A DNA stretch of 35,956 bases from Dehalococcoidia bacterium (GTDB taxonomy: Bacteria > Chloroflexota > Dehalococcoidia > GIF9 > AB-539-J10): assembly GCA_030602785.1 (NCBI GenBank), contig JAUVZB010000024.1:1-35956 (forward strand). The letters run 5' to 3'. The notes beneath the pieces are model-generated. The model made no database searches, had not been told where the DNA came from, and saw only the letters and a program-made list of their open reading frames with translations. A program made the position numbers and the translations under genes. Of the stretch, positions 5,795 through 34,208 are shown one piece after another; positions within the stretch are counted from its first letter, which is position 1; each line of letters starts with the position of its first letter.

Positions 5795-5980
5795 ATGGCG
5801 AGATTCTTCGTCTACGACGGCAGGGAGCACCCGGATCCGGACCCATCCCTCTCCGTGGAGGAGGTGAAGGCGACCTTCGCCTCCTTCTTCCCTGAGGTGG
5901 CCACCGCCGAAGTGCGCACCACCCAGCGGGGGGAGGACACTGTCTACGAGTTCGTGCGCCGGGTTGGAACAAAAGGGTAA
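5795..5980 (+). CDS. PRTRC protein C, ubiquitin-like modifier
   Basis: 61 aa from ATG 5795 after GAAAGGGGGTATA. The pattern RFFVYDG-x-H-PDPDPSLS-x-EEV, a helix to FPEVATAEV, then YEFVRRVGTKG is the PRTRC protein C family as I know it, which is classed with prokaryotic ubiquitin-like proteins. Strands at about 2-8 and 36-42, a helix at 20-32 and a final strand at 50-56 suit a beta-grasp fold. It ends in GTKG with no extension, so a C-terminal Gly is already exposed for adenylation by the E1-like protein at 9736. Family call strong; modifier function is inference. Confidence 0.85.
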   Translation: MARFFVYDGREHPDPDPSLSVEEVKATFASFFPEVATAEVRTTQRGEDTVYEFVRRVGTKG

Positions 5981-5991
5981 GGGGGATAGAG

Positions 5992-6279
5992 ATGGACGCC
6001 AAACCCTATGTGCACAAGATACTAAAGCCTGACGGGACCATGGTGGATTGCTCGCCGGCGGGGGAGTACTTCACCCTGGAGGAGCTCCAGGCTGCTATGG
6101 ATGGCGGCTGGGTTGAGAACATTAATCTCGCCGGGGGCTTCGTCATGATCATCGATGAGGAGGGCAAGCTCAAGGAGCTGCCCCCCAACAACTTAGCGAC
6201 CGAGCTCGTTGGGGCCCCGGGAGTTTCCATCGTGGGCAACGCTCTGGTCTGCCTGGACAAGGGCGAAGAGCTTGGGTAA
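5992..6279 (+). CDS. DUF3846-like protein
   Basis: 95 aa from ATG 5992 after AAGGGGGATAGAG. The series EYFTLEELQAAMDGGWVENI, MIIDEEGKLKELPPNN-x-AT and IVGNALV matches the DUF3846 domain found in many phages and plasmids. The domain's role is unknown. It overlaps the next start in TAATG. Sitting between the ubiquitin-like gene and the rest of the cassette makes it a candidate accessory or target. Confidence 0.75.
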   Translation: MDAKPYVHKILKPDGTMVDCSPAGEYFTLEELQAAMDGGWVENINLAGGFVMIIDEEGKLKELPPNNLATELVGAPGVSIVGNALVCLDKGEELG

Positions 6280-6503
6280 TGGACGCTGCTGAGGTCGCCC
6301 GCATCCTGGGCCAGGCCCCCGAGAAGCATCTGGTCCTGGTGGAGCTGGCCTGGCGGTGTGTGGGGCCCGACGGCCGCTTCGACCTTGACCTGGCCCTCCC
6401 CATGGCCGCCGACATCGAGGCGGCCATCCAGGAGGCCAGGGCCTACATTACAGAAACGCAGAATCTGATATGGGCGCTGGAGAAGCTGGCGAAGGGCCGC
6501 TGA
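6279..6503 (+). CDS. Small helical protein
   Basis: 74 aa starting at the TAATG overlap with the DUF3846 gene. It is almost entirely helical (AAEVARILGQAP, DIEAAIQEARAYITETQNLIWALEKLAKG). It overlaps the next gene by 34 nt. Location implies co-expression with the cassette. No family recognised. Confidence 0.55.
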   Translation: MDAAEVARILGQAPEKHLVLVELAWRCVGPDGRFDLDLALPMAADIEAAIQEARAYITETQNLIWALEKLAKGR

Positions 6504-7333
6504 ACCGCCTGGCCGACGCCCTCCGCGGCGCCCGGCCCCGCAGCCTCTCCAGCCTGACCATGCAGGTGGAGGACGTCGAGACCTACCAGGAGTTTCTGCG
6601 CCTGGTTGACGAGTACCTGCCCGACCAGAGGCAGGAGATCCTCCAGGCGGGTAGCCCCGATAACATGGTGATGGCGTTCGCCCATCGCTTCTCGGAGCCC
6701 TACTTCCCCCTGGCGGAGCAAATGTTCTCGGGGGGTAACGAGTCCCTGAGCGACCTGATGCGCTGCATCCCCCTCGATGTGCACGGGTACGACTATGACG
6801 ATTACCACTGCCTGTGCGATGAGAGGCCCTCCGCGCTCCTGTCCTCCCTCCTGGTGGACTTCGAGGAGGAGCTGGGGATAGGGGAGGAGGGGGTAAGAGT
6901 CACCATACTGGAGGCGGCGGCGCAGCACGTCTCTCAGGAGCTCCTGGGCCGTATCCCCGGGAAGGGGTACTCCCTGGAATACCTGGAGCAGGTGCTGCCC
7001 GGCAGCAAGTATGAGGGGTTGCTGGACCGCGCCCGTCACATCTGCCACACGACCAACAACGACTTCCTGGACGTCACCGGGGAGGAGTATTGGAGTAATC
7101 CGCCGGATTGGGACCGGGAGCATGTGGATAACCTCACCCAGGAATGGCGCAAGGCGGTCGAGATGCAAGACCGGATGGTGACCTTCTTCAGCTGGCTGGA
7201 GGAGGACCTGAAGGGCAATTTCGCCCGCCTGCTGAGGTTCCTGGGGGCAATCGAGGCTGCGCCGGTGCCGCCGGAGCAGATGCGGCTGCCGCTGGAAGGA
7301 GATGATGCCGAAGAAGAAGACGACGACAACTGA
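6470..7333 (+). CDS. Acidic protein at PRTRC protein F position
   Basis: 287 aa from ATG 6470, overlapping the previous gene by 34 nt; the next Met is 31 residues in and has no better ribosome site. Mostly helical, with a middle segment CIPLDVHGYDYDDYHCLCDERP and CHTTNNDFLDVTGEEYW, and a very acidic tail. In proteobacterial cassettes the gene beside protein B is protein F; this protein has similar size and position, but I cannot confirm homology by eye. It overlaps the E2-like gene by 32 nt. Confidence 0.55.
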   Translation: MGAGEAGEGPLNRLADALRGARPRSLSSLTMQVEDVETYQEFLRLVDEYLPDQRQEILQAGSPDNMVMAFAHRFSEPYFPLAEQMFSGGNESLSDLMRCIPLDVHGYDYDDYHCLCDERPSALLSSLLVDFEEELGIGEEGVRVTILEAAAQHVSQELLGRIPGKGYSLEYLEQVLPGSKYEGLLDRARHICHTTNNDFLDVTGEEYWSNPPDWDREHVDNLTQEWRKAVEMQDRMVTFFSWLEEDLKGNFARLLRFLGAIEAAPVPPEQMRLPLEGDDAEEEDDDN

Positions 7334-8003
7334 GCCCGGTTTCCGGTGGGCCCTGCCGGAAGGGCTGGATGTGCCCCCTGACAAGCTGATCCTCCGGCTG
7401 GACATCTTCCAGGAGACTATCGTGCTGCACCAGTTCGGGGAGAACGGCACCACAGTTCGGGTGGTCTCCGCCCTGGAGGTGGCCAGGGCCTTCACCAAGG
7501 ACATTCGCCTCCACAGCGGGGCCCTCCCCGAGGGAGCCCTGTGGTGGAGCATGGGCCCGGAAGGGGAGGAGGTGGCGCTGTGGCGGAGTCCCCGGGTGTG
7601 GCAGGCGGCCCTGGTGGTGGAAGCTTTCAAGCCCCCCCAGCGCTTCAACCTGCCCATGCCCGGGCTGGTCTTCGTATGCTCGGCGGGGAAGCCGCCCCGG
7701 GTCTTCGCTGCCAAGAGGCGGCCGGCTGGTCTCAACTATCCCCTCTACCATGCTCCCCTGTTGAACCTTTTCATCAATGGCGGGAGCTGCACCGGCACCC
7801 ATCAGTACGGGCAGGATGTGGGCCAGCACCCCGAGGAGTTCTTCACGGCCTTCTTCAGCGACGCGGGACACACCTCGGGCAGGTCCAAGAAGTACCCCGA
7901 CGGCCTGCTGACCCTATGGGCGGAGCTGGACGGGAAGAAGAGCTACCCCATCCGGGACATGGTTTTACTGGGAACAGTGGAGCAGGTGATGGGGGAGATA
8001 TAA
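7302..8003 (+). CDS. PRTRC protein B, E2-like
   Basis: 233 aa; ATG 7302 and 7305 are adjacent and GGAAGGA favours 7305. The stretch MPGLVFVCSAGKPPRVFAAK, RPAGLNYPLYHAPL, then NGGSC (Cys163) and HPEEFFTAFFSDAGHT follows the PRTRC protein B family, grouped with prokaryotic E2-like proteins. Cys163 after the LYHAPL strand is the expected thioester cysteine. Its proposed role is to take the modifier from the E1-like enzyme. It overlaps its upstream neighbour, so the two are translationally coupled. Family call firm; E2 chemistry is from family knowledge. Confidence 0.82.
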   Translation: MMPKKKTTTTEPGFRWALPEGLDVPPDKLILRLDIFQETIVLHQFGENGTTVRVVSALEVARAFTKDIRLHSGALPEGALWWSMGPEGEEVALWRSPRVWQAALVVEAFKPPQRFNLPMPGLVFVCSAGKPPRVFAAKRRPAGLNYPLYHAPLLNLFINGGSCTGTHQYGQDVGQHPEEFFTAFFSDAGHTSGRSKKYPDGLLTLWAELDGKKSYPIRDMVLLGTVEQVMGEI

Positions 8004-8013
8004 AGGAGGACGT

Positions 8014-8298
8014 ATGGCCTTAGCAATGGGCCGCACAGTCATGACGAGGGGCGTGAGTGACCTGGCGGAGCAAGACACCACAGGCAAATTCCGGGCGGGT
8101 CTGGTCGACCTGCTGCGCCGCCACTCCAACGGGGATTGGGGGGATCTCTCCCCCGATGACCGGAAGGCCAACGAGGAGGCCCTGAAGACTGGAGCCAGGG
8201 TCTTCTCCGTTTACAACCTGCAGAGCGGCGTCAAGCTCTGGGTCATCACCGAGGCCGACCGGAGCTCCACCACCATACTCCTCCCCGACGAGTACTGA
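8014..8298 (+). CDS. Conserved mobile-element protein
   Basis: 94 aa from ATG 8014 after TAAAGGAGGAC. The features RRHSNGDWGDLSPDDRKANEEAL, GARVFSVY and KLWVITEADRSSTTILLPDEY belong to a small family seen widely on plasmids and integrative elements, with no known function. The near-invariant ITEADRS-TT-LLP end suggests a conserved binding surface. Confidence 0.75.
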   Translation: MALAMGRTVMTRGVSDLAEQDTTGKFRAGLVDLLRRHSNGDWGDLSPDDRKANEEALKTGARVFSVYNLQSGVKLWVITEADRSSTTILLPDEY

Positions 8299-8318
8299 CA
8301 TGAAAGGAGGTAACCGAG

Positions 8319-8552
8319 ATGCCTAAGTGCACGAAGTGCGACCGTGAGGTGGTTCTCCTGGTCAACCGGGTCGCCGAGGTCCACTTCTACGACCTCACGT
8401 TGGACGGTGACTGCCCCTCATACGAAGAGACGAGCTTTGAAACCTTCGGGCAGGGAGACTTCCGTTGCCCGCAGTGCCAGGAGCTTCTGTTCTCGGACTT
8501 GAACGCAGCCCTGGCCTTTTTGAAGGAGGTGCCCGATGCCACAAAACCCTAA
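8319..8552 (+). CDS. Two-knuckle zinc-ribbon protein
   Basis: 77 aa from ATG 8319 after AAAGGAGGTAACCGAG. CTKC at 4-7 and CPQC at about 51-54 form a ribbon separated by an acidic segment. It overlaps the next gene by 17 nt. Inserted within the PRTRC gene run. Function unknown. Confidence 0.6.
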   Translation: MPKCTKCDREVVLLVNRVAEVHFYDLTLDGDCPSYEETSFETFGQGDFRCPQCQELLFSDLNAALAFLKEVPDATKP

Positions 8553-8787
8553 GGATGTAGGCTGCCCCCAGTGCAACGCGGCGCCAGGGTGTCCCTGCCG
8601 CTACCCCTCGGGCAGGCTTTTCCATGGGTTTCATAGGGCCCGCTACTCGGCTGCTGATGAGCCCCACCCTCTTTTACGCGTCACCTGCCCCACCTGCGGG
8701 GTCGAGATAGGGCGCAAATGCGTCAAGCCGGGCACACGCCAGGAAATCTCCGGCATCCACACGCTCCGTCTGGGACGGAGGGGATAG
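8536..8787 (+). CDS. Tandem CPxC zinc-finger protein
   Basis: 83 aa. ATG 8536 follows AAGGAGGTGCCCG inside the upstream gene's end. Two diverged copies of one zinc unit are visible: CPQCNAAPGCPCR-YPSGRLFHGFHRARY and CPTCGVEIGRKCVKPGTRQEISGIHTLR. This CP-x-C...G-x-PC...H-x2-R type is common in actinobacterial and phage DNA-associated proteins. Its stop abuts the GTG start of the JAMM gene. Confidence 0.7.
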   Translation: MPQNPKDVGCPQCNAAPGCPCRYPSGRLFHGFHRARYSAADEPHPLLRVTCPTCGVEIGRKCVKPGTRQEISGIHTLRLGRRG

Positions 8788-9396
8788 GTGGCCACCGGCC
8801 TGGTCGGATACATCGTCCTCACCCGCGGGGGGGATATCGGTACCCGGGGCAGCGTCTACACCTACATCATGGCTGGCAACGGCCTGTGGCTGGAGGCGGA
8901 GAACCCCCTCCTGGAGGCCCGCATCCAGCTATCGTCCCTCATGGTGAGGGGGCTGCACCCCTTGCTTCCCCGGCTGGAGCTCCGCCACGGGCGCATACCC
9001 GCCCACCTGCTTTCCCTGGCGATGGATGCCTTCTCAGCCCGGTCCGAGCTGGAGGGCTACGCCGCTATCGCCTGGGATGGGGAGAAATACGAGCTGGTGT
9101 GGCCGGCGCAGGAGAGGACCGCGACCTCTGTGGTCTATGACAAGGTGCCCAACACCGTGGTGGGCCTCCACTCCCACGGCCGCATGGGGGCGTTCTTCAG
9201 CGCCACCGACGACGGGGACGACCTGGGCTTCCTGCTGGAGGTGGTGGTGGGGAAGCTGGACCGGCTGGTGCCGGCGGCCGGGGTCCGCCTCTGCATCTAC
9301 GGCTACCATGCCCCGGTGGAGCTCCGGGAGGTGCTCGCTGGGCTGGCGCCCTGGATCGAGGAGGCGAAAGCGCCTGGCGGTGACTGGCGGTTTTGA
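8788..9396 (+). CDS. PRTRC protein A, JAMM/JAB metallopeptidase
   Basis: 202 aa, GTG 8788 immediately after the previous stop, with GGAGGGG upstream. GLHSHGRMGAFFSATDDGDD contains the complete JAMM zinc site H128-x-H130-x7-S138-x2-D141 on a strand-loop-helix as in JAB proteases; the general-base Glu should lie upstream in the first half. JAB proteins next to E1-like proteins cleave ubiquitin-like modifiers from targets. As the modifier here already ends in Gly, deconjugation is the likelier job than maturation. The protein is cytoplasmic, with no signal or membrane span. Confidence 0.85.
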   Translation: MATGLVGYIVLTRGGDIGTRGSVYTYIMAGNGLWLEAENPLLEARIQLSSLMVRGLHPLLPRLELRHGRIPAHLLSLAMDAFSARSELEGYAAIAWDGEKYELVWPAQERTATSVVYDKVPNTVVGLHSHGRMGAFFSATDDGDDLGFLLEVVVGKLDRLVPAAGVRLCIYGYHAPVELREVLAGLAPWIEEAKAPGGDWRF

Positions 9397-9758
9397 GGTT
9401 CGCTCCGTACCCGAAACCCATAGCAAGGTCGCATACGCGGCGGCGCCTGATGCGGGCTGAGAAAACCCTTGAGACGCAGAAGGCGAAATACCCCATGTTC
9501 GCCGACCAGTGGAAGACGGAGACGGCAGAGGAGCGACTCAACCGGGTAGATGAAAGCGTCCGTCTTTCTGTGCAGCACATGAGGAGCCACCAGGCGGCGC
9601 TGTGGCGCCAGGCCCGGCGCGCTCTGTTTGCTCTGCCTGAGCCGCAGCGCAGGGTGCTGACTGATGAATGGAATGGCAACAGGTGGCTGCCGGGCTCGCC
9701 GGAGTACCTGCTGGATTTCCTAAGGGGGAAGGGGATTGGATTACCGCCTGAGCAATAA
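9393..9758 (+). CDS. Hypothetical basic helical protein
   Basis: 121 aa using a TTG start at 9393 that overlaps the JAMM stop (TTGA); ATG 9450 is an alternative without a clear ribosome site. Basic N-terminus (RSHTRRRLMRAEKTLETQKAKYP), a helical middle with TAEERLNRVDESV, and a C-terminal LTDEWNGNRWLPGSPEYLLDFL. Similar small proteins occur next to replication genes in mobile elements. It overlaps the E1-like gene by 23 nt. Confidence 0.6.
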   Translation: MRFAPYPKPIARSHTRRRLMRAEKTLETQKAKYPMFADQWKTETAEERLNRVDESVRLSVQHMRSHQAALWRQARRALFALPEPQRRVLTDEWNGNRWLPGSPEYLLDFLRGKGIGLPPEQ

Positions 9759-10527
9759 GTTCGGCAGCTACCACAACGGCATTGCACTAATCGGTGTAGG
9801 CGGCACCGGGAGCTTCGCCGCCGAAGGGATGGCTCGGCTGCTGGCTGGCCACCCCGATATCCGCCTGATCCTCATAGACGGGGACCGGGTGGAGGAGCGC
9901 AACCTGGGCCGGCAGAACTTCTACCCTGAGGACCTGGGCCGCTTCAAGTCCCAGGCCCTGGCGGAACGCCTGGCCAGAAAACACAGACGCCCTATAGCAT
10001 ACTCCATCCTCCCCCTCCTGCCAGGTGGAGTTGGGCACAGGGCTGTGGACGAGTGCTCCCTGTTGGTGGGCTGCGTGGACAACGCCGCCGCCCGCTCCAC
10101 CATCGCCGGCCTGGTGTCCTACTCCCAGTGGTGGGTGGACGCCGGCAACGGAGAGGAGTTCGGCCAGGTGCTGGTGGGCAATTCCACCGTGAAAACGCTC
10201 CGCACGGGCTGGTCCTTCCACCCGGAGGAGGGGGTAGTCAACGCCCTGCCCCTGCCCACCCAGGTGCGCCCGGAGCTGCTGGTCACTCCCGCACGGCCCC
10301 AGCAGGACTGCGCCGAGGCGGTGGCGGTGGGGGAGCAGGGGCCCACCATAAACCAGTTCATGGCCGCCATGGTGGTGGAGGCAGTGCGCCGGCTCCTGGA
10401 GGGGAGGCTGACCTGGTGGCAGCTTTTCCTGCAGCTGGAGTCGACAGGCCTCTACACGATGAGCCCGACACCAGAGGCGGTATCGAGGCTAACGGGGATA
10501 CCCGTAAATAAGCTGGAAAGGAGGTGA
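9736..10527 (+). CDS. PRTRC ThiF-family E1-like enzyme
   Basis: 263 aa with a TTG start at 9736 behind AAGGGGA. GVGGTGS at 20-26 is the ATP-binding loop. LIDGDRVEERNLGRQNF at 47-62 holds the Asp50, Asn56, Arg59 and Gln60 expected in E1/ThiF enzymes, with Lys71 in DLGRFKS. VGCVDN at 112-116 contains the conserved Asp. Cys192 in QQDCAEA lies where PRTRC ThiF proteins have a conserved Cys and is the candidate thioester residue. It should adenylate the C-terminal Gly of the 5795 product. All nucleotide-site residues appear intact. Confidence 0.88.
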   Translation: MDYRLSNKFGSYHNGIALIGVGGTGSFAAEGMARLLAGHPDIRLILIDGDRVEERNLGRQNFYPEDLGRFKSQALAERLARKHRRPIAYSILPLLPGGVGHRAVDECSLLVGCVDNAAARSTIAGLVSYSQWWVDAGNGEEFGQVLVGNSTVKTLRTGWSFHPEEGVVNALPLPTQVRPELLVTPARPQQDCAEAVAVGEQGPTINQFMAAMVVEAVRRLLEGRLTWWQLFLQLESTGLYTMSPTPEAVSRLTGIPVNKLERR

Positions 10528-10532
10528 TTACC

Positions 10533-11000
10533 ATGGAAGAGGAGAAAGGCCCTAACCCGGTAGAAGGGGACAAAGGCCCCAACCCGGTGGAAGGGGACAA
10601 AGGCGCCAACCCGGTGGAAGGGGAGGAAGAGGCGGAGGCGGAGGCGGAGGTGGAGGCGGAGGCGGAGGAGACAGCCGCCGAGGCCCCCACCGCCGAGTCC
10701 CCCCAGACCACCCCGGAGTTGAAGGTGGTGCTCCAGATATGGGGGACCCGTGCCATCGTCGGCATCCAGGGGACAAACACCGATCCGGTGGTGGAGACCC
10801 TGGAGACGGCCTCCCTGGAGGAACTGCTGGCGGCCGTGCCGGGGGTGCTGGCCCGGGCCAGGGAGCGGTGGGCCACCAGCCCCCGCAACCCCAAGTATGT
10901 GGGGCCGCCAGCGCCACCGCCGGCGACACCAGCACCAGGCAAGCCGGCGGGCCGGGCATCGAGACCCCCCGCGGCACCGACCCCACGGATGTTCGAGTGA
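10533..11000 (+). CDS. Acidic-repeat protein at the end of the PRTRC cassette
   Basis: 155 aa. ATG 10533 follows AAAGGAGGTGATTACC; the upstream in-frame GTG lies inside that site. Residues 5-31 are three GPNPVEGDK-type repeats, then an EAEAEVEAEAEE run, then a small globular part (LKVVLQIWGTRAIVGIQG...VVETLETASLEELLAAVPGVLARARERW) and a Pro/Ala-rich tail. PRTRC protein E would be expected nearby, but homology is not evident. It overlaps no gene, yet the ribosome site sits in the E1 gene's end. Confidence 0.6.
   Translation: MEEEKGPNPVEGDKGPNPVEGDKGANPVEGEEEAEAEAEVEAEAEETAAEAPTAESPQTTPELKVVLQIWGTRAIVGIQGTNTDPVVETLETASLEELLAAVPGVLARARERWATSPRNPKYVGPPAPPPATPAPGKPAGRASRPPAAPTPRMFE
10545..10624 (+). 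repeat. Three 27-bp coding repeats
   Basis: Units at 10545-10571, 10572-10598 and 10599-10624 differ at only a few bases. They encode the nonapeptide KGPNPVEGD three times. Near identity at synonymous sites points to recent slippage. Confidence 0.8.
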
Positions 11001-11036: not shown

Positions 11037-11081
11037 AAAGCTACAGATTCTTGGAGAAAAAAGCTACAGATTCTTGGAGAA
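11037..11081 (+). repeat. 23-bp tandem repeat in clamp leader
   Basis: AAAGCTACAGATTCTTGGAG occurs at 11037 and again at 11060, a 23-bp period. Each copy carries GGAGAAA, so the potential ribosome site before the clamp start is duplicated. Confidence 0.75.
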
Positions 11082-11091
11082 AGGGGTAACT

Positions 11092-12276
11092 ATGCCTAAG
11101 AAAGAGAAGAAGGAGCCGGGGAGCGGCACACCCCCGGAAGCCCAGGCTCAGGTCCTTGAGGTCGGCGTAGCTGCGCTCAGGGAGGCCCTGGACCTGGTGA
11201 TCCCCGCGGTGCCCCGGAAGGCCCCACTGGCGGTCGTCAACCACGTGCGATTGGGTGACGGCCAGATAGTCGCTACCGACCTGGATGTGGCAGTTGCCGT
11301 AGCCCTGCCACAGGTCGAGGGAGCGATGCTGCTGCCCCCCCACGCGGCGTTGGAGTTCCTGGGCTACGCCCCGGGGCACCTGTCCGCCCACATAACGTAC
11401 GAGAACGGCACGGTCACCATCGCCGTGGATCGCATGCAGAGCAACTTCAAGGTGCCGGCCCTCGACGATTTCCCACCCGTCCCTTTCAGCAAGCCGGACG
11501 AGCTGGAGCACCAGGGGGTGCTGGAGGGTGATGCCCTGGTTCGGGCCATGACCGCAGTACTGCCCGCCGCCGCTACCGAAAGCGAAAGGCCGGTGCTCAC
11601 CGGCCTGTGTCTCACCATGGGGGACAAAGTCCAGGTGGTGGCCGCCGACGGCTACATCCTATCCTGGGAGGGGGTGCCGGGACGGCTGCCGGGGGAGGGG
11701 AACCTCTTACTGCCCGCCCGGGCGGTGCGGCTCCTGGCACACCTGTGGAAGAGGGCAGCCTCGCCCGATTTATCGGCTGCCTCGAACCCGGCACAGGTGG
11801 CCCTGGCAAAGAGGCTCATCCGGTTGGAGTGGGAAAAAGAGAAGCTGCAGATGCGGTTCGGCCGGGTGGCCCTGCTATGCAAGCTCACCCAGGGGAACTT
11901 CCCCGATTTCAACCAGCTCATCCCCACCGAGCATGCGGCCAGTGTCACCGCTGACGCCGGCGACATGCTCCGCGCCCTGCAGCAGGTCAAGGGCAAGGCC
12001 AAGGACGGCGCGGGCATCGTCCGTTTCAAGTGGGAGGGAGACAGTCTTCAGATTTCCGCCCAGGCTGTGGATATCGGCGACACCATGGTGCCAGTGCGGG
12101 TCCAGAGCAACGGTCCGGGGAAGACGGCCATGAACATCACCTACCTCCTGACGTACTTCAAGGGCAAGGAGGGCAGCGTCACCATGACCCTCCCGGAACC
12201 CGAGGGTGCGCCGATAACCTTCGCTCACCGGGGCACGCCCCATACCGTGCTGATGCCCATGACCGTGCAATGGTAA
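11092..12276 (+). CDS. dnaN: DNA polymerase III beta sliding clamp homologue
   Basis: 394 aa from ATG 11092 after GGAGAAAGGGGTAAC; the normal family length is about 370 and the extra is a Lys/Glu/Pro-rich N-terminus. It shows the three-domain clamp pattern: AVVNHVRLGDGQIVATDLDVAVAV in domain 1, VLTGLCLTMGDKVQVVAADGYILS in domain 2, and domain 3 with NFPDFNQLIP, KTAMNITYLLTYFKG and the closing VLMPMTVQW. A clamp encoded on a mobile element would tether DNA polymerase to the element or alter host clamp traffic. It follows the PRTRC cassette with a short structured leader. Confidence 0.9.
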   Translation: MPKKEKKEPGSGTPPEAQAQVLEVGVAALREALDLVIPAVPRKAPLAVVNHVRLGDGQIVATDLDVAVAVALPQVEGAMLLPPHAALEFLGYAPGHLSAHITYENGTVTIAVDRMQSNFKVPALDDFPPVPFSKPDELEHQGVLEGDALVRAMTAVLPAAATESERPVLTGLCLTMGDKVQVVAADGYILSWEGVPGRLPGEGNLLLPARAVRLLAHLWKRAASPDLSAASNPAQVALAKRLIRLEWEKEKLQMRFGRVALLCKLTQGNFPDFNQLIPTEHAASVTADAGDMLRALQQVKGKAKDGAGIVRFKWEGDSLQISAQAVDIGDTMVPVRVQSNGPGKTAMNITYLLTYFKGKEGSVTMTLPEPEGAPITFAHRGTPHTVLMPMTVQW

Positions 12277-15219: not shown

Positions 15220-15735
15220 TTAAGGGTTCCTATCTGGCAGTTTAGGGTTCCCCCACATCAACGAAGGGGGGTTTGCTCTGACACGTTGCGGTCTCGGCCC
15301 TGTCAAGGGTTTCCCCACATCAATTGTGAGCCGGCCGCCGAGGTGGTCATACTCGTGCAGGGCCGTCCTGGCCCCGGGGCCGGAAAAACGGAGCTTCACC
15401 GCCTGGCGGTGCTGGTCCTCGCCCCTGATCACCACCATCATGGCCCGGGTCACCACGTAGAACTGGTCCGGGAGCGAGAGACACCCTTCCTCAAAGGTCT
15501 GGTGCCCCTTCGCCTTGAGGATGACGGGGTTGACCAGACAGATAGGGGGCTGCTCATTCATCGCCATGACGAAGACCCGGAGATGGGGCCCGATCTGGTT
15601 GGCTGACAGGCCCTGGGCCCCGTGCTCCTGCAGCTCCCGGAAGAGGTCGCGCACCAGGTTGTCGATGGGAGTCTCAGCCAGCACCCAGGCGCAGGGCTGC
15701 CGGAGTAAGGCCAGGTCAGTGATGATGGGCAGCAC
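15220..15735 (-). CDS. def: Peptide deformylase
   Basis: 171 aa from GTG 15735, which has GGAGAAAC 4-10 nt upstream; GTG 15765 would overlap the neighbour by 50 nt. All three deformylase motifs are present: GAQGLSANQIG (39-49), EGCLS (83-87, metal ligand Cys85) and HEYDH (127-131, two His ligands and the catalytic Glu). It removes formyl from nascent proteins. Deformylases on phages and plasmids are known. Downstream AT-rich sequence and overlap with the membrane gene place it in the same operon. Confidence 0.9.
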   Translation of the reverse strand: MLPIITDLALLRQPCAWVLAETPIDNLVRDLFRELQEHGAQGLSANQIGPHLRVFVMAMNEQPPICLVNPVILKAKGHQTFEEGCLSLPDQFYVVTRAMMVVIRGEDQHRQAVKLRFSGPGARTALHEYDHLGGRLTIDVGKPLTGPRPQRVRANPPSLMWGNPKLPDRNP

Positions 15736-16093
15736 GTTTCTCCAGAAACGTGTCCCGGTGGCCACCGGCCATCACGCATTCTGTCTCATGCTCAAAGAGG
15801 CCCCGCCCATCGTCCCGGTGGTGGCGCAGGTCCTCACACATTATATCCCAGCCAGTCCAGACCTGGCCCAGGACAATGAACCCCACCAGCGCCAGGAACC
15901 ACTCCCCGCCCAGAAAGCCCGGGAGGACGAACAATGCCCTGACCAGCACACAGGCAAGCCCCTGGACCCAGGTATGACGCAGGCCCGATGGCAGGTGCGT
16001 AGCACCGCGGCGGCCCTCCAGGCGGAGGACCATGGCCAGGCCCAGGGCAGCCAGCCAGGGCCAGGCCGCCGCCAGATCTACCTCCCCTGTCAC
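15716..16093 (-). CDS. Small two-span membrane protein
   Basis: 125 aa, GTG 16093 after GGGGAGA. Hydrophobic stretches at about 6-22 (LAAAWPWLAALGLAMVL) and 42-78 (VQGLACVLVRALFVLPGFLGG and FLALVGFIVLGQVW) suggest two or three spans. The soluble end is His-rich (HHRDD, HHH terminus). It may bind a metal. No family recognised. Confidence 0.6.
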   Translation of the reverse strand: MTGEVDLAAAWPWLAALGLAMVLRLEGRRGATHLPSGLRHTWVQGLACVLVRALFVLPGFLGGEWFLALVGFIVLGQVWTGWDIMCEDLRHHRDDGRGLFEHETECVMAGGHRDTFLEKRAAHHH

Positions 16094-18940: not shown

Positions 18941-19323
18941 CAGTCACCTCCCGCAATATGCCTTTCAGTATAACCCTGCCGGGGCGCCTGGTGTACAACG
19001 CCGCCGGGGACCGTAGTACACCCTTCTGGGCACTCGTGAAAGTGAAAATGCCCCAGCTCGTTGACCGCCAGCTCGAAGAAATCCACCCCGAGGCGGGCGA
19101 AGGCCAGGCGCACATCCGCCTCCCAAATCGACCGCAGCACTGTCTGGCGGCGGTCGGAGCACCAGGGGCGAACCGAGATGTGCCAGCCGGGGGCAAGGGC
19201 ATGCCTGGTAACGATGATGTGATAGCGCCGGGCGATACAGAACCTGTCCATAGGAAAGCCCGTCATCTCGTCCGTCCCCTCGAACTTCCAGTGCGGCATC
19301 TTGAACCCGTGATGCGGTGTCAC
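18940..19323 (-). CDS. DUF7694-like phage protein
   Basis: 127 aa, GTG 19323 after GAGGGAG, overlapping the Pol X stop (GTGA). GWHISVRPWCSDRRQTVLRSIWEADVRLAF resembles the W-H-[IV]-S-V...R...W-E core of a small phage domain family I recall as DUF7694. The HFHFHECPEGCTT segment could bind metal. No function is known. Confidence 0.5.
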   Translation of the reverse strand: MTPHHGFKMPHWKFEGTDEMTGFPMDRFCIARRYHIIVTRHALAPGWHISVRPWCSDRRQTVLRSIWEADVRLAFARLGVDFFELAVNELGHFHFHECPEGCTTVPGGVVHQAPRQGYTERHIAGGD

Positions 19324-19787
19324 AGCCGCTCCCTCATGGATGGCTCAATGTAGGGCAGCCCCAGGGCCCCGAAGATCTCCTCCTCGGACCGCCAGGCCAC
19401 CCGCTGGTCATCCTTGAGGATCCCCCGGCCGTCTGCAGCGAAATGCAGCAATTTGGCCTTCGCCCTCATAGCCAGGTCGCGGTTAAATGCTGCGCTGCCG
19501 GTGCGCACCAGTAGCAGCATGGGGAAGGTCTCCTCATTGGCCAGGTAGAGGTCCACGGAGGCCCCCATATACTGGAAACGCTGGAGCTTCGGCCCCCCGA
19601 TGCGGCACCCCAGCTCGTGGAGCTTGACCGCCAGTTGCCCCTGGTTGGCCGGGATGAGGACCAGGTCGATGTCTTTGACCAGGGGCCGCTCCCGGCGGAT
19701 GCTGCCGGCCATGGTCATCTTCTTGCAGCAGGGCTCCAGCTCCTTCACCAGCGCCGTCGCTATCGCCCTGGCTCGCTCAAGCTCCAT
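19320..19787 (-). CDS. Minimal Pol X-type nucleotidyltransferase
   Basis: 155 aa. ATG 19787 has GAGGAGG upstream; the longer reading lacks one. GSIRR at 28-32, D39-x-D41 and Asp79 in SVDLY are the three-carboxylate nucleotidyltransferase site. KLQRFQYMG and LLLVRTGSAAFNRDLAMRAK with EEEIFGALGLPYIEPSMRE are Pol X palm-thumb signatures. It lacks the 8-kDa and fingers domains, so it is a stand-alone catalytic module. It may add nucleotides to DNA ends or to another substrate. Confidence 0.82.
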   Translation of the reverse strand: MELERARAIATALVKELEPCCKKMTMAGSIRRERPLVKDIDLVLIPANQGQLAVKLHELGCRIGGPKLQRFQYMGASVDLYLANEETFPMLLLVRTGSAAFNRDLAMRAKAKLLHFAADGRGILKDDQRVAWRSEEEIFGALGLPYIEPSMRERL

Positions 19788-20133
19788 GCCCGGCCTCCTC
19801 GTCCCAGTACCCGGTAGACTTTCTGACACGGATGACCCCATGAGTAGGCCCACCAGAGTCCTCAAGCTTCCTGACTATCGGTAGGACAACCATTGACCCA
19901 TTTCGCAAGATGGCGACAGCCCGGCCCTCTTTTCTCGCCAGCTCCCCCGCAGCGAGAAGGTCTTTCACATATTCATCGTCCATAATCCGTATCACAAGGT
20001 CATGGCCCATCTGGTCTAACCACTCCTGGGATGGGATTATGTAGATGCCGGTGGGGGTTCGACTTATTTCCCCCTTCCTGTACATTTCTCTAAGCAGGGC
20101 CTCCTCACCGGACCCGGCCTCCTCAGGTTTCAC
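19777..20133 (-). CDS. Hypothetical protein, partly duplicated
   Basis: 118 aa, GTG 20133 after GAAG; ATG at codon 17 is an alternative. RTPTGIYIIPSQEWLDQMG and EGRAVAILRNGSMVVLPIVRKL are the clearest parts and suggest a small alpha/beta protein. Its first 16 codons, with the end of the gene upstream, recur as a fragment at 20377-20425. Overlaps the Pol X gene by 11 nt. Confidence 0.6.
   Translation of the reverse strand: MKPEEAGSGEEALLREMYRKGEISRTPTGIYIIPSQEWLDQMGHDLVIRIMDDEYVKDLLAAGELARKEGRAVAILRNGSMVVLPIVRKLEDSGGPTHGVIRVRKSTGYWDEEAGHGA
20081..20129 (-). repeat. Duplication junction, intact copy
   Basis: This stretch encodes the N-terminus of the 118-aa protein (KPEEAGSGEEALLREMYRK). It matches 20377-20425 at most positions, marking the downstream edge of a tandem duplication that copied the 79/80-aa gene. 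Confidence 0.65.
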
Positions 20134-26270: not shown

Positions 26271-26519
26271 CTAAGTTGTTCTTTCATCTTTGCGCCCCTG
26301 TTCGTAGCCTTCTAACCAGAAGCCGCATACATAGAGCTGAAGGGTGCCCATTGTAGACCAGCTTTCCTCCGCAAAGGTTTCCTTTTCCTCTTTGATTTCC
26401 TCAAGGGCATACTGCTTGGCAGCCTCTCTGACCGCTGGGTCCCACTCGTTACTATGGTCATCCAGCATCTTGTCCACCAGGCTTTCCGTGATGATCTTGT
26501 CCGACCAACGTTCGGGCAT
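26271..26519 (-). CDS. MG-Q-L-YVC family protein, paralogue 2
   Basis: 82 aa from ATG 26519 after GGAAGGAG. WSDKIITESLVDKMLDDHS, REAAKQYALEEIKEE and TMGTLQLYVCGFWLEGYEQG are the conserved parts shared with 25667-25942. Acidic and helical. Function unknown. Confidence 0.6.
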   Translation of the reverse strand: MPERWSDKIITESLVDKMLDDHSNEWDPAVREAAKQYALEEIKEEKETFAEESWSTMGTLQLYVCGFWLEGYEQGRKDERTT

Positions 26520-26535
26520 GCGAGACTCCTTCCAG

Positions 26536-26973
26536 TCAGTCGGTGGTGGCTTCTATGGCCACCACCTGCTCCTTCAGCTCCCGGTACCGGGAGCAGTCCT
26601 GGTGCCTTTTGCCCCCGCAGAACTCCTTGGCCAGTGCCTTGTCATCCAGATTCGGAGAAAAGGGCCTGTCGCAACGGAAGGTGATGAAGGGACAGCGTTG
26701 TACCAGACACTCAGAGCATTCCCACGGCCAAGTAGCCCCCCGGGTCCGCAGGAAGCCGATGAAATGCCGTTTCAGCTCATTGGCGTCCGAGGAGAGGCCC
26801 ACGTAGTAGCTCAGGTGGGCAAGCTCCTTTCCCTGCGCCAGGCCCAACCCCAGCGAGGCCGGCAGGGTCAGGCAAGAGTCCCCGACGAACACCGTGGCGC
26901 CGCAGGTGCAGGTGTAGCAGAACGACCCCCGTCCGTCCCAGGGGATGTCCCGGCCGCAGCCCAGGCAGGTCAT
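26536..26973 (-). CDS. Multi-zinc-ribbon protein
   Basis: 145 aa from ATG 26973 after GAGGCGGCG. CLGC at 3-6 and CTC pair (YTCTCGATVF) make one ribbon; WECSECLVQRC and FCGGKRHQDC make a second cluster. A central segment (AQGKELAHLSYYVGLSSDANELKRHFIGFLR) is helical. This ribbon-helix-ribbon layout recurs in mobile-element proteins. Possibly nucleic-acid binding. Confidence 0.65.
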   Translation of the reverse strand: MTCLGCGRDIPWDGRGSFCYTCTCGATVFVGDSCLTLPASLGLGLAQGKELAHLSYYVGLSSDANELKRHFIGFLRTRGATWPWECSECLVQRCPFITFRCDRPFSPNLDDKALAKEFCGGKRHQDCSRYRELKEQVVAIEATTD

Positions 26974-27059
26974 CGCCGCCTCACCTACGCCAGCCACGAT
27001 ATAGACACCAGCAGAGTGCTGCTATGTAAAGATACCCAAAGAGTCCAAAAGGAGGAATA
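26974..27059. other. Intergenic gap with no gene
   Basis: This 86-nt gap is the longest in this part of the operon. It contains a short inverted repeat (AGCAGAGTGCTGCT) and AT-richer sequence. A minus-strand promoter is possible but I see no good -35/-10 pair. Confidence 0.4.
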
Positions 27060-27311
27060 TCAACCATGCTTCGCCTTCCCCCGGTGGATGTTCTGGCGCC
27101 GGATGTAACCGTCATGGCCTCGTTCCCAGGGGCGGTTCAGCACCAGGGAGACCTCCCAACCCGGGGGGCGAATGTAGTCACCATGGAGATACCTGAGCCC
27201 GACGCCACAGGGCATCGCCCAGGCCATGCGGCCGTTGTGGAAGAATCCGTGTCCCCAAATGAGGCTTCCCCTCGTCCTGGTGCGCCGCTTGCCGGTCCCT
27301 TTACCGGGCAC
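27060..27311 (-). CDS. HNG-domain small protein, paralogue 2
   Basis: 83 aa using GTG 27311, 7 nt after GGAGGC at the end of the upstream gene; the longer reading has a low-quality Arg-rich front. FFHNGRMAWAMPCGVGLRYLHGDYIRPPGWEV is the conserved part shared with 21651. The basic N-terminus (KGTGKRRTRTRG) and the tail (GYIRRQNIHRGKAKHG) suit nucleic-acid contact. Function unknown. Confidence 0.6.
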   Translation of the reverse strand: MPGKGTGKRRTRTRGSLIWGHGFFHNGRMAWAMPCGVGLRYLHGDYIRPPGWEVSLVLNRPWERGHDGYIRRQNIHRGKAKHG

Positions 27312-27696
27312 CTTTCGCCTCCGACTCCGCTTTTGCCTTACTGTACCACCCCGGGAAGTCTGCCCCAGCTTTCTTCTGTCTTTCGCCCTCGGCGGGGCAG
27401 TCCACGACTGGTAGGCTTTCCTGCCATTCCTCAAGCCCCTTTGTGTGCCACCTACCCCAGATATACCACGGCAGCATCCACCATAGGTTTCTCCCGGCAC
27501 CCTTCAGCTTGTCCCAGAGCACCTCATGCCAAGCCACGAAATAGGCCGCCTCCCTCTCATTGGAATCGCAGTGGCCGAAGTAGGGACACATCTCGGCGGC
27601 CAGGCAGAAGCTGGAAACAGCGGGACGCCCGCAGGGGTATGACCCACTCTCCCCCTCGCCGAAGCAGTAGCCCTCAATTACGATATGTCGCCACAT
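27301..27696 (-). CDS. Cys-rich protein
   Basis: 131 aa from ATG 27696 after AAAGGAAG. HIVIEGYCFGEGESGSYPCGRP, SSFCLAAEMCPYFGHCDS give five Cys in 30 residues, a likely metal site. The middle is Trp-rich (NLWWMLPWYIWGRWH), followed by a charged tail. The Cys-rich half looks like a conserved domain, but I cannot name it. Confidence 0.6.
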   Translation of the reverse strand: MWRHIVIEGYCFGEGESGSYPCGRPAVSSFCLAAEMCPYFGHCDSNEREAAYFVAWHEVLWDKLKGAGRNLWWMLPWYIWGRWHTKGLEEWQESLPVVDCPAEGERQKKAGADFPGWYSKAKAESEAKGAR

Positions 27697-27729
27697 CCTA
27701 CCGCTTCCTTTCGTTCACGGCCGGTCCCT

Positions 27730-27975
27730 TTACCCGGCAGGGGCCACCTCCTCCACCTCAATGGAAACTGCCCCGGCCGGTTTCACTGTCATAAGAAGCC
27801 GGCGCTCCTCCTCGGTGAGGGGGTGGTCACTGATGATGGGGACCGTCTGCAAAACAACCAACCTCTTACCGTCATGCCCCCAGTCCTCCAGGATTTTGCC
27901 CATAGCTTCGTTGACCTTCGCCAGATTCTCGGGCGTATGAGTCACCACCACGTTGTAATGAAACTCCTGGCTCAT
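27730..27975 (-). CDS. Small hypothetical protein
   Basis: 81 aa. ATG 27975 follows GGAGGTTTTCC, which lies in the last codons of the upstream gene. Strands (HYNVVVTHTP, KRLVVLQTVPII) alternate with helices (ENLAKVNEAMGKILEDW, TEEERRLLMT). This is compatible with a ferredoxin-like fold. The tail VEEVAPAG resembles the tail of the upstream protein. Confidence 0.6.
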   Translation of the reverse strand: MSQEFHYNVVVTHTPENLAKVNEAMGKILEDWGHDGKRLVVLQTVPIISDHPLTEEERRLLMTVKPAGAVSIEVEEVAPAG

Positions 27976-28241
27976 TGGAAAACCTCCTGCCCGGCAGGGA
28001 CCACCTCCTCCACCGTCAGCGGTGGAGCTCGTCTTCGGTTTCTGAGACAGGCAGCCCATCCTTTCATGAAAGCTACAATGAAGGGCATCTCGTGATGAGT
28101 CAGGAAATACACGGTTTGCTGCCCTGCCCGTTCAGGCCACATAGTCGCCGTCCACCAGGCCAAGGCATCCGCAAGACCGGGGTATTCGGCCAGAGCCGTA
28201 GCTTTCTGGGCTTCGATTTCTGCTATGGAATCTGACATCAT
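27972..28241 (-). CDS. Small helical protein
   Basis: 89 aa; ATG 28241 and 28238 are adjacent after AAAGGGGGCGAAG. Helical with LADALAWWTATMWPE and MPFIVAFMKGWAACLRN. It ends TVEEVVPAGQEVFQ, whose codons carry the next gene's ribosome site. Overlaps the J-domain stop. Confidence 0.55.
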   Translation of the reverse strand: MMSDSIAEIEAQKATALAEYPGLADALAWWTATMWPERAGQQTVYFLTHHEMPFIVAFMKGWAACLRNRRRAPPLTVEEVVPAGQEVFQ

Positions 28242-28771
28242 GGCTTCGCCCCCTTTACCTTAACGATGTGCTCATAAGCCTTCTGAAGGCGCTTGAACCG
28301 CTCCTCGTCGCCGCCCTTGTCGGGGTGGGCGAACATTGCCTTGGTCTGGTAGACCCGTTTCACCTCTTCAACGGAGGCGTCCGGCTCCACCCCCAGGACG
28401 GCGCAGGCCGTCTCGTAGCTCTCCTTGTCGGAGTCCTTGCCGGTGGTGACCAAGCCGCCCACGAACTGCACCCCCTGGGCCACGCCGGTGATCCCCCGCT
28501 CCCCCCAGATCTTCATGTTGTGGACCACCACGTAGCACACCCGGAGGTTCTGGGCCCTGGTGGGCTGCAGCCTGGAGCCTATCTCGGTCCAGGTCTTGCC
28601 CCGGAGGAAGCGCACCGTGTAGCCGGGGCCGCTGTCGTCAGGGAAGGGCTCCCAGTCCTCTATGACCCAATCGTTGAACAGGCGGCGCAAGTCGGCTAAG
28701 GTATCGGACACCGTCTTATCGGTATCTATTATGTTGACGACGGCGGCGCCGCCGGCCCGCTTCCTGGTCAT
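28238..28771 (-). CDS. J-domain protein
   Basis: 177 aa from ATG 28771 after AAAGGGGGCTAAG. Residues 119-172 (ACAVLGVEPDASVEEVKRVYQ...HPDKGGDEERFKRLQKAYEHI) are a C-terminal J domain with the HPD at 149-151, so it can stimulate an Hsp70. The N-terminal 110 residues are a separate alpha/beta part (WTEIGSRLQPTRAQNLRVCYVVVHNMKIWG) of unknown role, probably substrate recognition. In phages, J proteins recruit host DnaK to replication complexes. Confidence 0.8.
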   Translation of the reverse strand: MTRKRAGGAAVVNIIDTDKTVSDTLADLRRLFNDWVIEDWEPFPDDSGPGYTVRFLRGKTWTEIGSRLQPTRAQNLRVCYVVVHNMKIWGERGITGVAQGVQFVGGLVTTGKDSDKESYETACAVLGVEPDASVEEVKRVYQTKAMFAHPDKGGDEERFKRLQKAYEHIVKVKGAKP

Positions 28772-28784
28772 CTTAGCCCCCTTT

Positions 28785-28988
28785 CTACGTGTCCGGGCCT
28801 ACTTCATAGGACGTGGCTGAGAATCGGCAACATACGCCGTCGCGCAGTCTCACGATGAAAAGCCCTTGCTGTGGAACGGTCTTCACGGCATACCATCCAT
28901 TGTCTCCAGCAACCACGACGAGCTGGTCAAACTGATGGCCGGTGGCCCGAATGACCTCAGTGAGGAATCTGTCTTGCTCCGTGCTCAC
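28785..28988 (-). CDS. Small hypothetical protein
   Basis: 67 aa, GTG 28988 overlapping the upstream stop (GTGA), with AGGAGGGAGG before it. Strands QLVVVAGDNGWYAVKTV and GLFIVRLRDGVCCRF suggest a small beta fold. Function unknown. Confidence 0.55.
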   Translation of the reverse strand: MSTEQDRFLTEVIRATGHQFDQLVVVAGDNGWYAVKTVPQQGLFIVRLRDGVCCRFSATSYEVGPDT

Positions 28989-29248
28989 CCTCCCTCCTGG
29001 TGCACCGGCTCCAGCTGCCGCTCTTCCGAGACCCTTTTGACCCGGACGACAGGGTATTTTATGGTCATTCTGGTCCCGATCTTGGATGTGATATCCAGGA
29101 TGTCACCACGCCGGATTTTCTCGTTGTGAACAAGCACCCCGTTCCACAGCCAGGCCTGGAATGGCCGGCTATCGACCACAACACCGTCCCTGATGTCCCA
29201 TTCGAGGAAGTCCTGGCCGTGGTCTTTCAGATACACTGTGAGCAGCAT
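28985..29248 (-). CDS. Small beta-rich protein
   Basis: 87 aa from ATG 29248 after GGAGGAGGACCAAC. LLTVYLKDHG, IRDGVVVDSRP, WLWNGVLVHNEKIRRGDILDI and TIKYPVVRVKRV are beta strands typical of an SH3- or OB-like barrel. The last codons hold the ribosome site for the next gene. Function unknown. Confidence 0.55.
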   Translation of the reverse strand: MLLTVYLKDHGQDFLEWDIRDGVVVDSRPFQAWLWNGVLVHNEKIRRGDILDITSKIGTRMTIKYPVVRVKRVSEERQLEPVHQEGG

Positions 29249-29261
29249 GTTGGTCCTCCTC

Positions 29262-30350
29262 CTATCGCTTCGGCTCCGCCTTGAGTAGGTCGATGAAGGC
29301 CGAGGCCCCCGACATGGTGAGGTCCCCTATTTGCTCCCTCCCCGCCATCTGGCAGAGCTCCTCCAAGCCTATGCCCCGCTCTTTTGCGAGGCTGGTTATG
29401 TGCCGGACCTGGGCCTCGGAAGCCATGTGGACCTGCTGCCCGGGCGCCGACCCCTGGGCCTGGGGCTGGCCATGCCCCGCTGCTCCTTCTACCACCCGGT
29501 ACTCGGCGTCGATCACCTCCAGCGCCTCAGGGATCCCATCGGCTTCTTCCACCAGCGCCTGGCGGGAGGTCCTGAGCTGGCTGGACGCCTCCGGGTATGA
29601 CTCCCAGTACCATCGCTTCACCGCTCGCACCCGGGCCTGGTTGCCAGGGAGCTCGCCCGCCGGCGTGCCGTCCGCCTTGGCCTTCTCCTGTTGCTTGTGG
29701 GTCACCCATCCATAGGTGGTGAACTCCCGCCCAGGTTCCCAATCCTTGCGCCGCCCGGTGGCTGACCACATCCAGGCCTCGGGGTCACCGCACAGGTCCT
29801 CCTTCAGGCCCGGGTCGGTAACCCGCTCGGCGGTGGGCGGGCCATTCCAGGCCTCGGGGCACGCCCGGGCCGCCAGGGAGCCGTAGCCTTGCTCCGAGAT
29901 GAGGGGCACCACCACATACTGGTCGGTCTTGCTGTTTCTGAACGGGAGGGGGTAGACCTCTCCCAGCAGTGGGTCCAGCCCCATGCCCAGGCACTGCACG
30001 GCGAACAGGGTAACGGCGCCCTGGTTTACCTTCTCCAGCTGCGGGAACCTGGCCGTCAGGATGGGGGCCAACCTGTAAGGCTCCCGCACCGCCAGCGCCC
30101 CCCGCCGAGCCCATCCTCGTTTGTCTATCTCCTGGGCCATCGCCACGGGGAGGGCGGCGCCCCGGCGGTGGGCCTGGGTCAGGCTCTCCTTCTCCACCAG
30201 CCCGGTGTGCTCCTGGGACTGGGTGCACAAGAGCACATAGCCCTCCACCCCGTACTTCCCGCCCCAGGCGAGCGACAGTAGCCCATGGCATTCAGCGCAC
30301 ACACAGCGCTCGCTGAGCCCCTGGCCTTCTCTGTAGTCGACCGGGATCAT
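29262..30350 (-). CDS. RecT-family single-strand annealing protein
   Basis: 362 aa. ATG 30350 follows AAGGAGGCGATC; the longer ORF crosses two other genes. A CxxC pair (CVCAEC, then LLC) near the start is an unusual zinc-like addition. The RecT core is seen in AVQCLGMGLDPLLGEVYPLPF, YVVVPLISEQGYGSLAARA and ARVRAVKRWYWESYP. The end MASEAQVRHITSLAKERGIGLEEL is the tail common in phage RecT/Bet relatives. It anneals complementary single strands in phage recombination. A RecE-type nuclease is not visible here. Confidence 0.82.
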   Translation of the reverse strand: MIPVDYREGQGLSERCVCAECHGLLSLAWGGKYGVEGYVLLCTQSQEHTGLVEKESLTQAHRRGAALPVAMAQEIDKRGWARRGALAVREPYRLAPILTARFPQLEKVNQGAVTLFAVQCLGMGLDPLLGEVYPLPFRNSKTDQYVVVPLISEQGYGSLAARACPEAWNGPPTAERVTDPGLKEDLCGDPEAWMWSATGRRKDWEPGREFTTYGWVTHKQQEKAKADGTPAGELPGNQARVRAVKRWYWESYPEASSQLRTSRQALVEEADGIPEALEVIDAEYRVVEGAAGHGQPQAQGSAPGQQVHMASEAQVRHITSLAKERGIGLEELCQMAGREQIGDLTMSGASAFIDLLKAEPKR

Positions 30351-30508
30351 GATCGCCTCCTTGCGTTCGGGCGAATACCCCACCAAATCCAAACAGCACC
30401 AACAATTAGCGCTGCAGCGCCAGCAATATACCAACCTGGAAAACCACCAATCATGATGGAGCCCGCAATGACCAAAACGCTTCCCGCTATAGTCCACAAT
30501 TTATCCAC
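30347..30508 (-). CDS. Tiny two-span membrane protein
   Basis: 53 aa, GTG 30508 within the end of the upstream gene; stop overlaps the RecT ATG (ATGA). WTIAGSVLVIAGSIMIGGF and WYIAGAAALIVGAVWIWW are two transmembrane helices joined by a PG turn. The C-terminus is basic (RPNARRRS), suggesting cytoplasmic ends. A holin-like role is possible but untestable by eye. Confidence 0.55.
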   Translation of the reverse strand: MDKLWTIAGSVLVIAGSIMIGGFPGWYIAGAAALIVGAVWIWWGIRPNARRRS

Positions 30509-30680: not shown

Positions 30681-31111
30681 GGTGCCTGCCCCTTGAACTT
30701 CCGGTGCACCTCAAAGAAGGGACACCTCTTTTGAGCTTCAGCCACCCGCTTGTTGGGTCGGATAAGGCCATCGGAAGCGAACCATTGGTGCTTATCCGGC
30801 GGGGTGTCTGGTGGGGTGTCATGTGCTGGAGAATCAAAGCGGCCCTTGCTGCAAGTGAAGATATCCTTCTCAAGGAGGCAAAGGCGGCTATCCGTTCCTC
30901 GGTGGGTGTCCTTGATGACCAGGTCACAGTACCGGCACATCTTCGGGACGAGGCGCCGTGGCTCCTCGAGGTGAACTACGCAGGCGCTGCAGTAGTCCGG
31001 GGCGCAAGGGGTCTCCCAGCGGCAGGGACCGGCCAGCGTCCGGCAGGGCTCGGCCTCGGTGCACCCGCACACCCGGCACCGGCGGGGGGGGCTTCCTACA
31101 TCTCTGCTCAC
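30677..31111 (-). CDS. Multi-Cys zinc protein
   Basis: 144 aa, GTG 31111 overlapping the ParB stop (GTGA), after GAGGAAG. CRVCGCTEAEPC, GPCRW and PDYCSAC form the mobile-element CxxCGCT...C...C...CSAC zinc module; MCRYC and CPFF follow. A DTPPDTPPDK repeat separates the parts. Placed next to ParB. Probably nucleic-acid or protein binding. Confidence 0.65.
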   Translation of the reverse strand: MSRDVGSPPRRCRVCGCTEAEPCRTLAGPCRWETPCAPDYCSACVVHLEEPRRLVPKMCRYCDLVIKDTHRGTDSRLCLLEKDIFTCSKGRFDSPAHDTPPDTPPDKHQWFASDGLIRPNKRVAEAQKRCPFFEVHRKFKGQAP

Positions 31112-34007: not shown

Positions 34008-34208
34008 CTATCGGGTAGCACTTGGCGGGCCTTTCAGGACCCCCTCGGCCTCCTCCTCCTCCAGTGGTGTAATGGGCACGCCACATAGGGTGACCCGCGC
34101 CCGCATTAACTTCTCAAGCTCCTGTCTTCGGGGCTCCCCGCCGCTGAAGATGTGGATGGTGTTGGGCTCGACCTCCATGCCGCAGCGTCGGCACCGCGTA
34201 GCGTTCAT
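34008..34208 (-). CDS. Small zinc protein
   Basis: 66 aa from ATG 34208 in an ATGA overlap with the integrase stop, with GAAGAAG upstream. CRRCGMEVEPNTIHIF begins it, with a third Cys in RVTLCGVP. Charged helix PRRQELEKLMRAR. Translationally coupled to the recombinase, so possibly a recombination cofactor. No family recognised. Confidence 0.6.
   Translation of the reverse strand: MNATRCRRCGMEVEPNTIHIFSGGEPRRQELEKLMRARVTLCGVPITPLEEEEAEGVLKGPPSATR

Follow-up and report, generated by a model that had tools for sequence, protein, structure and literature searches.

We analysed contig JAUVZB010000024.1, part of the 2.57-Mb draft genome of a Dehalococcoidia bacterium (GCA_030602785.1); the window is this entire contig of 35,956 bp. 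On one strand, between positions 5795 and 10527, it encodes a ubiquitin-like modifier (Ubl), an E2-like protein, a JAMM protease and an E1/ThiF enzyme. We consider it probable that these genes form a divergent PRTRC-like cassette for Ubl conjugation and removal, carried on a mobile element and acting on that element's own DNA-maintenance proteins. At the level of sequence, there is good support for reading these genes as a conjugation set. Operons of this kind have been known since 2006, when Iyer, Burroughs and Aravind described one that combines a ubiquitin-like protein with a terminal glycine, a JAB protein, an E1, an alpha-helical protein and a protein resembling E2 whose cysteine is conserved (PMC1779556, Table 1 row 6d and text). 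What appear to be new are the comparative data on Ubl tails, the JAMM protease and neighbouring DNA clamps. Hundreds of plasmids, and phages as well, carry PRTRC-type cassettes, and the comparison makes two questions directly testable: whether the JAMM protease matures the Ubl, and whether the neighbouring clamp is a substrate.

The four reading frames and their motifs had been located in a preliminary description made from the sequence, and an open reading frame (ORF) check together with Pfam and NCBIfam matches confirmed them. C, the Ubl (5795-5980, + strand), has 61 residues and ends GTKG-stop; B, the E2-like protein (7302-8003, +), has 233; A is the JAMM protease (8788-9396, +); and ThiF, the adenylating enzyme (9736-10527, +), has a TTG start. 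Hidden Markov model (HMM) searches against NCBIfam gave E-values of 2.9e-14 for PRTRC_C, 1.6e-12 for PRTRC_B, 3.8e-18 for PRTRC_A and 2e-29 for PRTRC_ThiF. The Pfam families Prok_Ub (8e-15), Prok-E2_D (7e-13; 49.1 bits for B against a cut-off of 25) and ThiF (PF00899, 1e-13) were all matched over their gathering scores, and Prok-JAB fell just under. Such a set of matches lies well outside what chance would give.

By sequence, the locus resembles the PRTRC cassette (ParB-related, ThiF-related cassette; TIGR03734-TIGR03742), its closest known relative, of which it would be a divergent variant. PRTRC membership had been proposed earlier, and part of that proposal stands. C exceeds the curated cut-off of PRTRC_C (TIGR03738; 53.0 against 45.95 bits), PRTRC models are the best family for A, B and ThiF, and the order C-(F position)-B-A-ThiF is kept in the window. 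Both kinds of cassette are carried by plasmids and phages, and annotated plasmids name such cassettes PRTRC system. The remaining scores fall short of the cut-offs: A reaches 65.7 of 101.8 bits, B 47.3 of 131.45, ThiF 102.6 of 144.75 and the element's ParB 47.8 of 278.6. No match to PRTRC D (TIGR03739) was found among the scanned window proteins, which covered part of the ORFs. The genes in the E and F positions had no NCBIfam match, and hhalign against PRTRC E and F gave E of about 0.3; with nothing significant from either, they are positional counterparts only. We call the cassette PRTRC-like because A, B, ThiF and ParB score too low for the equivalog models and because the comparisons gave no link from the genes in the E and F positions to PRTRC E and F. 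The layout differs as well, in that DnaN rather than ParB adjoins the window cassette, extra genes are inserted and the E-position gene follows ThiF.

For comparison, loci were gathered from viral contigs, genomes of relatives and plasmids, and were reduced to 118 whose ThiF proteins are less than 80% identical. Residue counts cover 72-118 of these non-redundant loci, depending on the protein. The GxGGxG nucleotide site of ThiF is intact, and G20, G22, G23, G25, D48, R59, Q60, K71, D115 and C192 are each present in 118/118 aligned relatives; the search patterns included the N-x-x-R-Q stretch and these glycines, whose counts are therefore biased, whereas C192, K71 and D115 formed no part of the patterns. 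Cys113, considered as a second catalytic cysteine of ThiF, was rejected, since 19/118 relatives have Ala or Ser instead. In B, Cys163 lies within NLFINGGSCTG at an N-x7-C spacing from Asn155. N155 and C163 are conserved in 113/113 sequences and P120 in 111/111, so that both cysteines previously proposed as candidates, Cys163 and Cys192, are invariant. The B consensus, P-N-V-x3-G-x-I-C, resembles the eukaryotic E2 active site, HPN-I-x3-G-x-I-C, and shares its Asn-to-Cys spacing. The HSH-x7-S-x2-D motif of A places His128 and His130 (both 72/72) with Ser138 and Asp141 (both 71/71), and Glu89 (67/70) is the fifth JAMM residue. At the end of C, G58 is kept in 112/114, K60 in 110/114 and the terminal G61 in 111/111.

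Such conservation bears on whether these genes could be decayed remnants or have come together by chance, which we regard as extremely improbable. The weak scores of A and B against the equivalog models could be cited for decay, as could the absence of a ThiF match in any of six congeners (0/6). Against this, the catalytic residues are intact and near-invariant, the frames are open, and gene order is shared with relatives whose ThiF proteins are about 40-62% identical. The named relatives of ThiF, SAR202 bin90 and an uncultured Dehalococcoidia, point to a host that is probably a Dehalococcoidia-like member of the Chloroflexota.

The invariance of Cys192, the single cysteine in the C-terminal half of ThiF, would also suit a sulfur-carrier system. 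C would then be a ThiS/MoaD-like carrier onto which ThiF loads sulfur via Cys192 (compare E. coli ThiF Cys184), and the JAMM protease would trim the carrier, with no protein tagging. The enzyme does match ThiF/MoeB models, and bacterial Ubl/JAMM pairs that lack an E2 act in sulfur assimilation (PMC1779556). We nevertheless consider this reading improbable. An E2-like protein with the invariant N-x7-C accompanies the E1 in 113/118 loci, and no sulfur-metabolism gene is prominent among the neighbours, those upstream being ParB, DnaN and an E-like gene. In profile searches of the PDB, ThiF matched UBA5, ThiF and E1s; the JAMM profile had BilC as its sole lead, a weak one (E 0.054), and sequence searches with B and C gave no match.

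The AlphaFold2 model of C, built from 57 sequences, has a mean predicted local distance difference test score (pLDDT) of 89.8 and a beta-beta-alpha-beta-beta arrangement, with low confidence at the GTKG end. In VIA it comes closest to ubiquitin (Z 5.6, 56 residues, 2.6 Å), which agrees with the beta-grasp fold that had been set as a test beforehand. Protein G and L, MoaD and the Ubl of a Bil complex follow closely, and an RRM, an unrelated fold, ranks second. Given the Z of 5.6, the closeness of other beta-grasp proteins and the rank of the RRM, the predicted beta-grasp fold of C has moderate support. The model of B (mean pLDDT 90.4) weakly suggests an E2 fold: the first 15 places in VIA go to E2 or UEV proteins, aligned from residue 70 to about 224, with a best Z of 4.9. 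Foldseek searches with both models returned no match at E <= 0.001.

The gene order of the cassette is repeated at many unrelated loci. Chloroflexota loci follow C-o74-F-B-A-ThiF, where o74 is a small gene described below, and phages and plasmids follow C-..-B-A-ThiF. The F-position gene (window 6470-7333, +) encodes a 287-residue protein that is conserved in relatives and matches no known family; it lies upstream of B in six Chloroflexota loci (L002, L003, L009-L012). ThiF matches occur on 416 plasmids in PLSDB, some of which may not carry complete cassettes. A C-F-B-A-ThiF cassette is also present at 26515-30438 of Burkholderia phage BgVeeders33 (OK665841; L117, also L021), where its products are mostly annotated as hypothetical proteins. 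This tailed phage has been isolated and encodes capsid, portal and terminase. In IMG/VR contigs, a large clade (L118-L151 and others, e.g. L118, L125, L137) is without the JAMM protease and often has DnaN upstream.

To our knowledge, the bacterial E1-E2-JAMM systems that have been studied experimentally act in defence. Instead of serving maintenance, the cassette could likewise be an anti-phage or anti-plasmid defence or competition module that tags the proteins of rivals, and its sporadic distribution, with a ThiF match in 5/149 related genomes (the window's own included), would fit. The window set shares the Ubl, E2, JAMM and E1 logic of Bil (BilA-D, bacterial ISG15-like) and Bub and the E1/E2 and JAMM logic of CBASS type II Cap2/Cap3, and its ThiF profile matches BubCD and Cap2 in the PDB. 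What sets it apart from Bil and Bub is that its E2 belongs to a separate family (Prok-E2_D), that it has one small Ubl, and that it is linked to ParB/DnaN and carried by plasmids and phages. In CBASS type II the E1 and E2 are fused; in the window they are separate, and no CD-NTase was seen. A PADLOC scan of nine window proteins gave only E1-core cross-hits of ThiF and no partner genes specific to Bil, Bub or CBASS. The cassette is, moreover, carried by BgVeeders33 and by many plasmids, and is linked to ParB and DnaN rather than to CD-NTases or effectors. A role in defence is in our view somewhat unlikely.

The presence of the JAMM protease is associated with the form of the Ubl itself. Among loci with B, ThiF and a readable Ubl end, those bearing a JAMM protease have a Ubl tail past G-x-K-G in 46/63 cases, 41 of them of at least 40 residues, and none in 17. 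The JAMM-less loci with a G-x-K-G end have a tail in 0/33, the Ubl stopping exactly at G-x-K-G (Fisher 1.7e-13, a raw value uncorrected for kinship). In JAMM-less loci the gap between B and ThiF is mostly 39-182 bp, and an ORF with HxH-S-D lies nearby in 1/45. The tail has changed about 15 times on the ThiF tree. JAMM-less branches make up 29% of its length, and the chance that all of these changes miss them is, by a rough estimate, about 0.006. Because tails occur only in JAMM-bearing cassettes, the JAMM protease probably matures a Ubl precursor in the relatives.

The window appears, from its sequence, to be a split form of this arrangement. It retains the JAMM protease, the Ubl ends in its mature form, and the tail homologue is encoded separately as o74 (6279-6503, +). 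An HMM of the stand-alone o74 matches the fused tails of six Chloroflexota loci (L012, L022-L025, L027; 5e-13 to 1e-21), and alignment agrees; the fusion is directly readable in L012. In Chloroflexota, judging from these comparisons, the Ubl tail is a homologue of the separate o74 gene of the window. The Ubl maturation step would be unneeded here, and the earlier claim that the GTKG end requires no protease step before activation is correct for the window member. Between the Ubl gene and the former tail module lies an inserted DUF3846 gene (5992-6279, +; PF12957, 2.4e-10), which is not among the genes running from C to o74 in relatives L002, L003 and L010-L012. The Ubl of BgVeeders33 has a 62-residue tail after GTKG; alignment does not support this phage tail as an o74 homologue. 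Two further observations concern Ubl tails: the Chloroflexota genome G232 has two Ubl-tail loci (L023, L034), and in G114 C51 (L026) a TGA breaks the frame between the Ubl and the tail module.

Neighbouring genes offer a suggestion as to the substrate. At 97 non-redundant loci with enough sequence 5' of the Ubl gene, the commonest families directly upstream are an E-like protein (52/97), ParB (28/97) and DnaN (16/97), the next reaching 6. ParB and DnaN are never found there together (0, with 4.6 expected if independent), a pattern that partly follows clades. In the window, as in L010, DnaN (11074-12276, +) instead lies downstream of ThiF. It matches TIGR00663 (6e-28) under the cut-off and Pfam DNA_pol3_beta_2 and _3 over it. 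The window ParB (31108-32970, -; ParB_N 6e-12, parB_part 1.6e-27, PRTRC_parB 8e-13, the last under cut-off) is encoded on the same element away from the cassette. That DnaN encircles DNA is established, and work on CTP-dependent clamps indicates the same for ParB. Since both are common upstream and both encircle DNA, the linkage suggests a DNA clamp, ParB or DnaN, as the conjugation substrate; the earlier naming of ParB and the sliding clamp as natural candidates thus gains positional support. A more specific scheme, which we regard as unlikely, is that PRTRC-type cassettes conjugate the Ubl to the adjacent element-encoded clamp, with the JAMM protease maturing the Ubl and reversing the mark, and so control plasmid or phage replication or partition. 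Were the clamp the substrate, bacteria and phages would regulate DNA clamps by Ubl tags. The parallel with ubiquitin and SUMO on eukaryotic PCNA, likewise a sliding-clamp modification, would hold only if the clamp idea is right, and is an analogy only.

For the conjugation cassette as a whole, we infer every biochemical step of the cycle, along with the E2 fold of B and the substrate. ThiF would adenylate the GTKG end of C, which would pass to Cys163 of B either directly or via a thioester at Cys192 of ThiF. B would then conjugate C to an amine of a target protein, most likely a DNA-maintenance protein of the element itself. The JAMM protease would remove C from the target and, in relatives, would also trim the Ubl precursor after G-x-K-G; in the window, where a separate o74 means that the Ubl would be born mature, it would be needed for removal only.

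Several points weigh against this proposal. The scores of A, B and ThiF miss the NCBIfam equivalog cut-offs given above, and the structural matches of the Ubl and E2 models are modest. The large clade without a JAMM protease implies that a full cycle of conjugation and removal is not obligatory. The association between tails and the JAMM protease is clustered on the ThiF tree, where independent pairs are too few to give power, and gene linkage does not prove a substrate. Among the titles and abstracts returned by a literature search, none described a biochemical study of a cassette member, nor a study of the PRTRC mechanism.

The cassette is less compact than the 4.7 kb first described. The location given was right, but inserted genes lie within it, and its full extent, with one extra gene and DnaN beyond ThiF, reaches about 12.3 kb. 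B and A are close together in relatives, whereas in the window three small ORFs (8014-8298, 8319-8552 and 8536-8787, all +) separate them over 8014-8787; the first had no family match in NCBIfam and Pfam scans. Another inserted ORF (9393-9758) lies between A and ThiF. The E-position gene (10524-11000, +) encodes an acidic, Pro-rich protein that is cassette-adjacent in Chloroflexota, and at window 10530-10620 its sequence GPNPVEGDK is repeated three times in near-identical form.

The description of the surrounding DNA as a mobile replicon is borne out in part. No terminal redundancy of the kind that would mark a circular contig was found in the 35,956-bp sequence. The element nonetheless encodes a Xer-type tyrosine integrase (34205-35101, -; Phage_integrase 6e-28), RecT, a DnaC-like helicase loader and an MCM-like AAA protein, alongside DnaN and ParB. 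Also present are a peptide deformylase (15220-15765, -; PF01327, 2.9e-29), which belongs as well to phage family phrog_2890, a short PolX-like protein with matches to the DNA polymerase beta palm and thumb (19320-19865, -), and a protein with a C-terminal DnaJ domain (28238-28771, -), which has matches to phage protein families without an assigned function.

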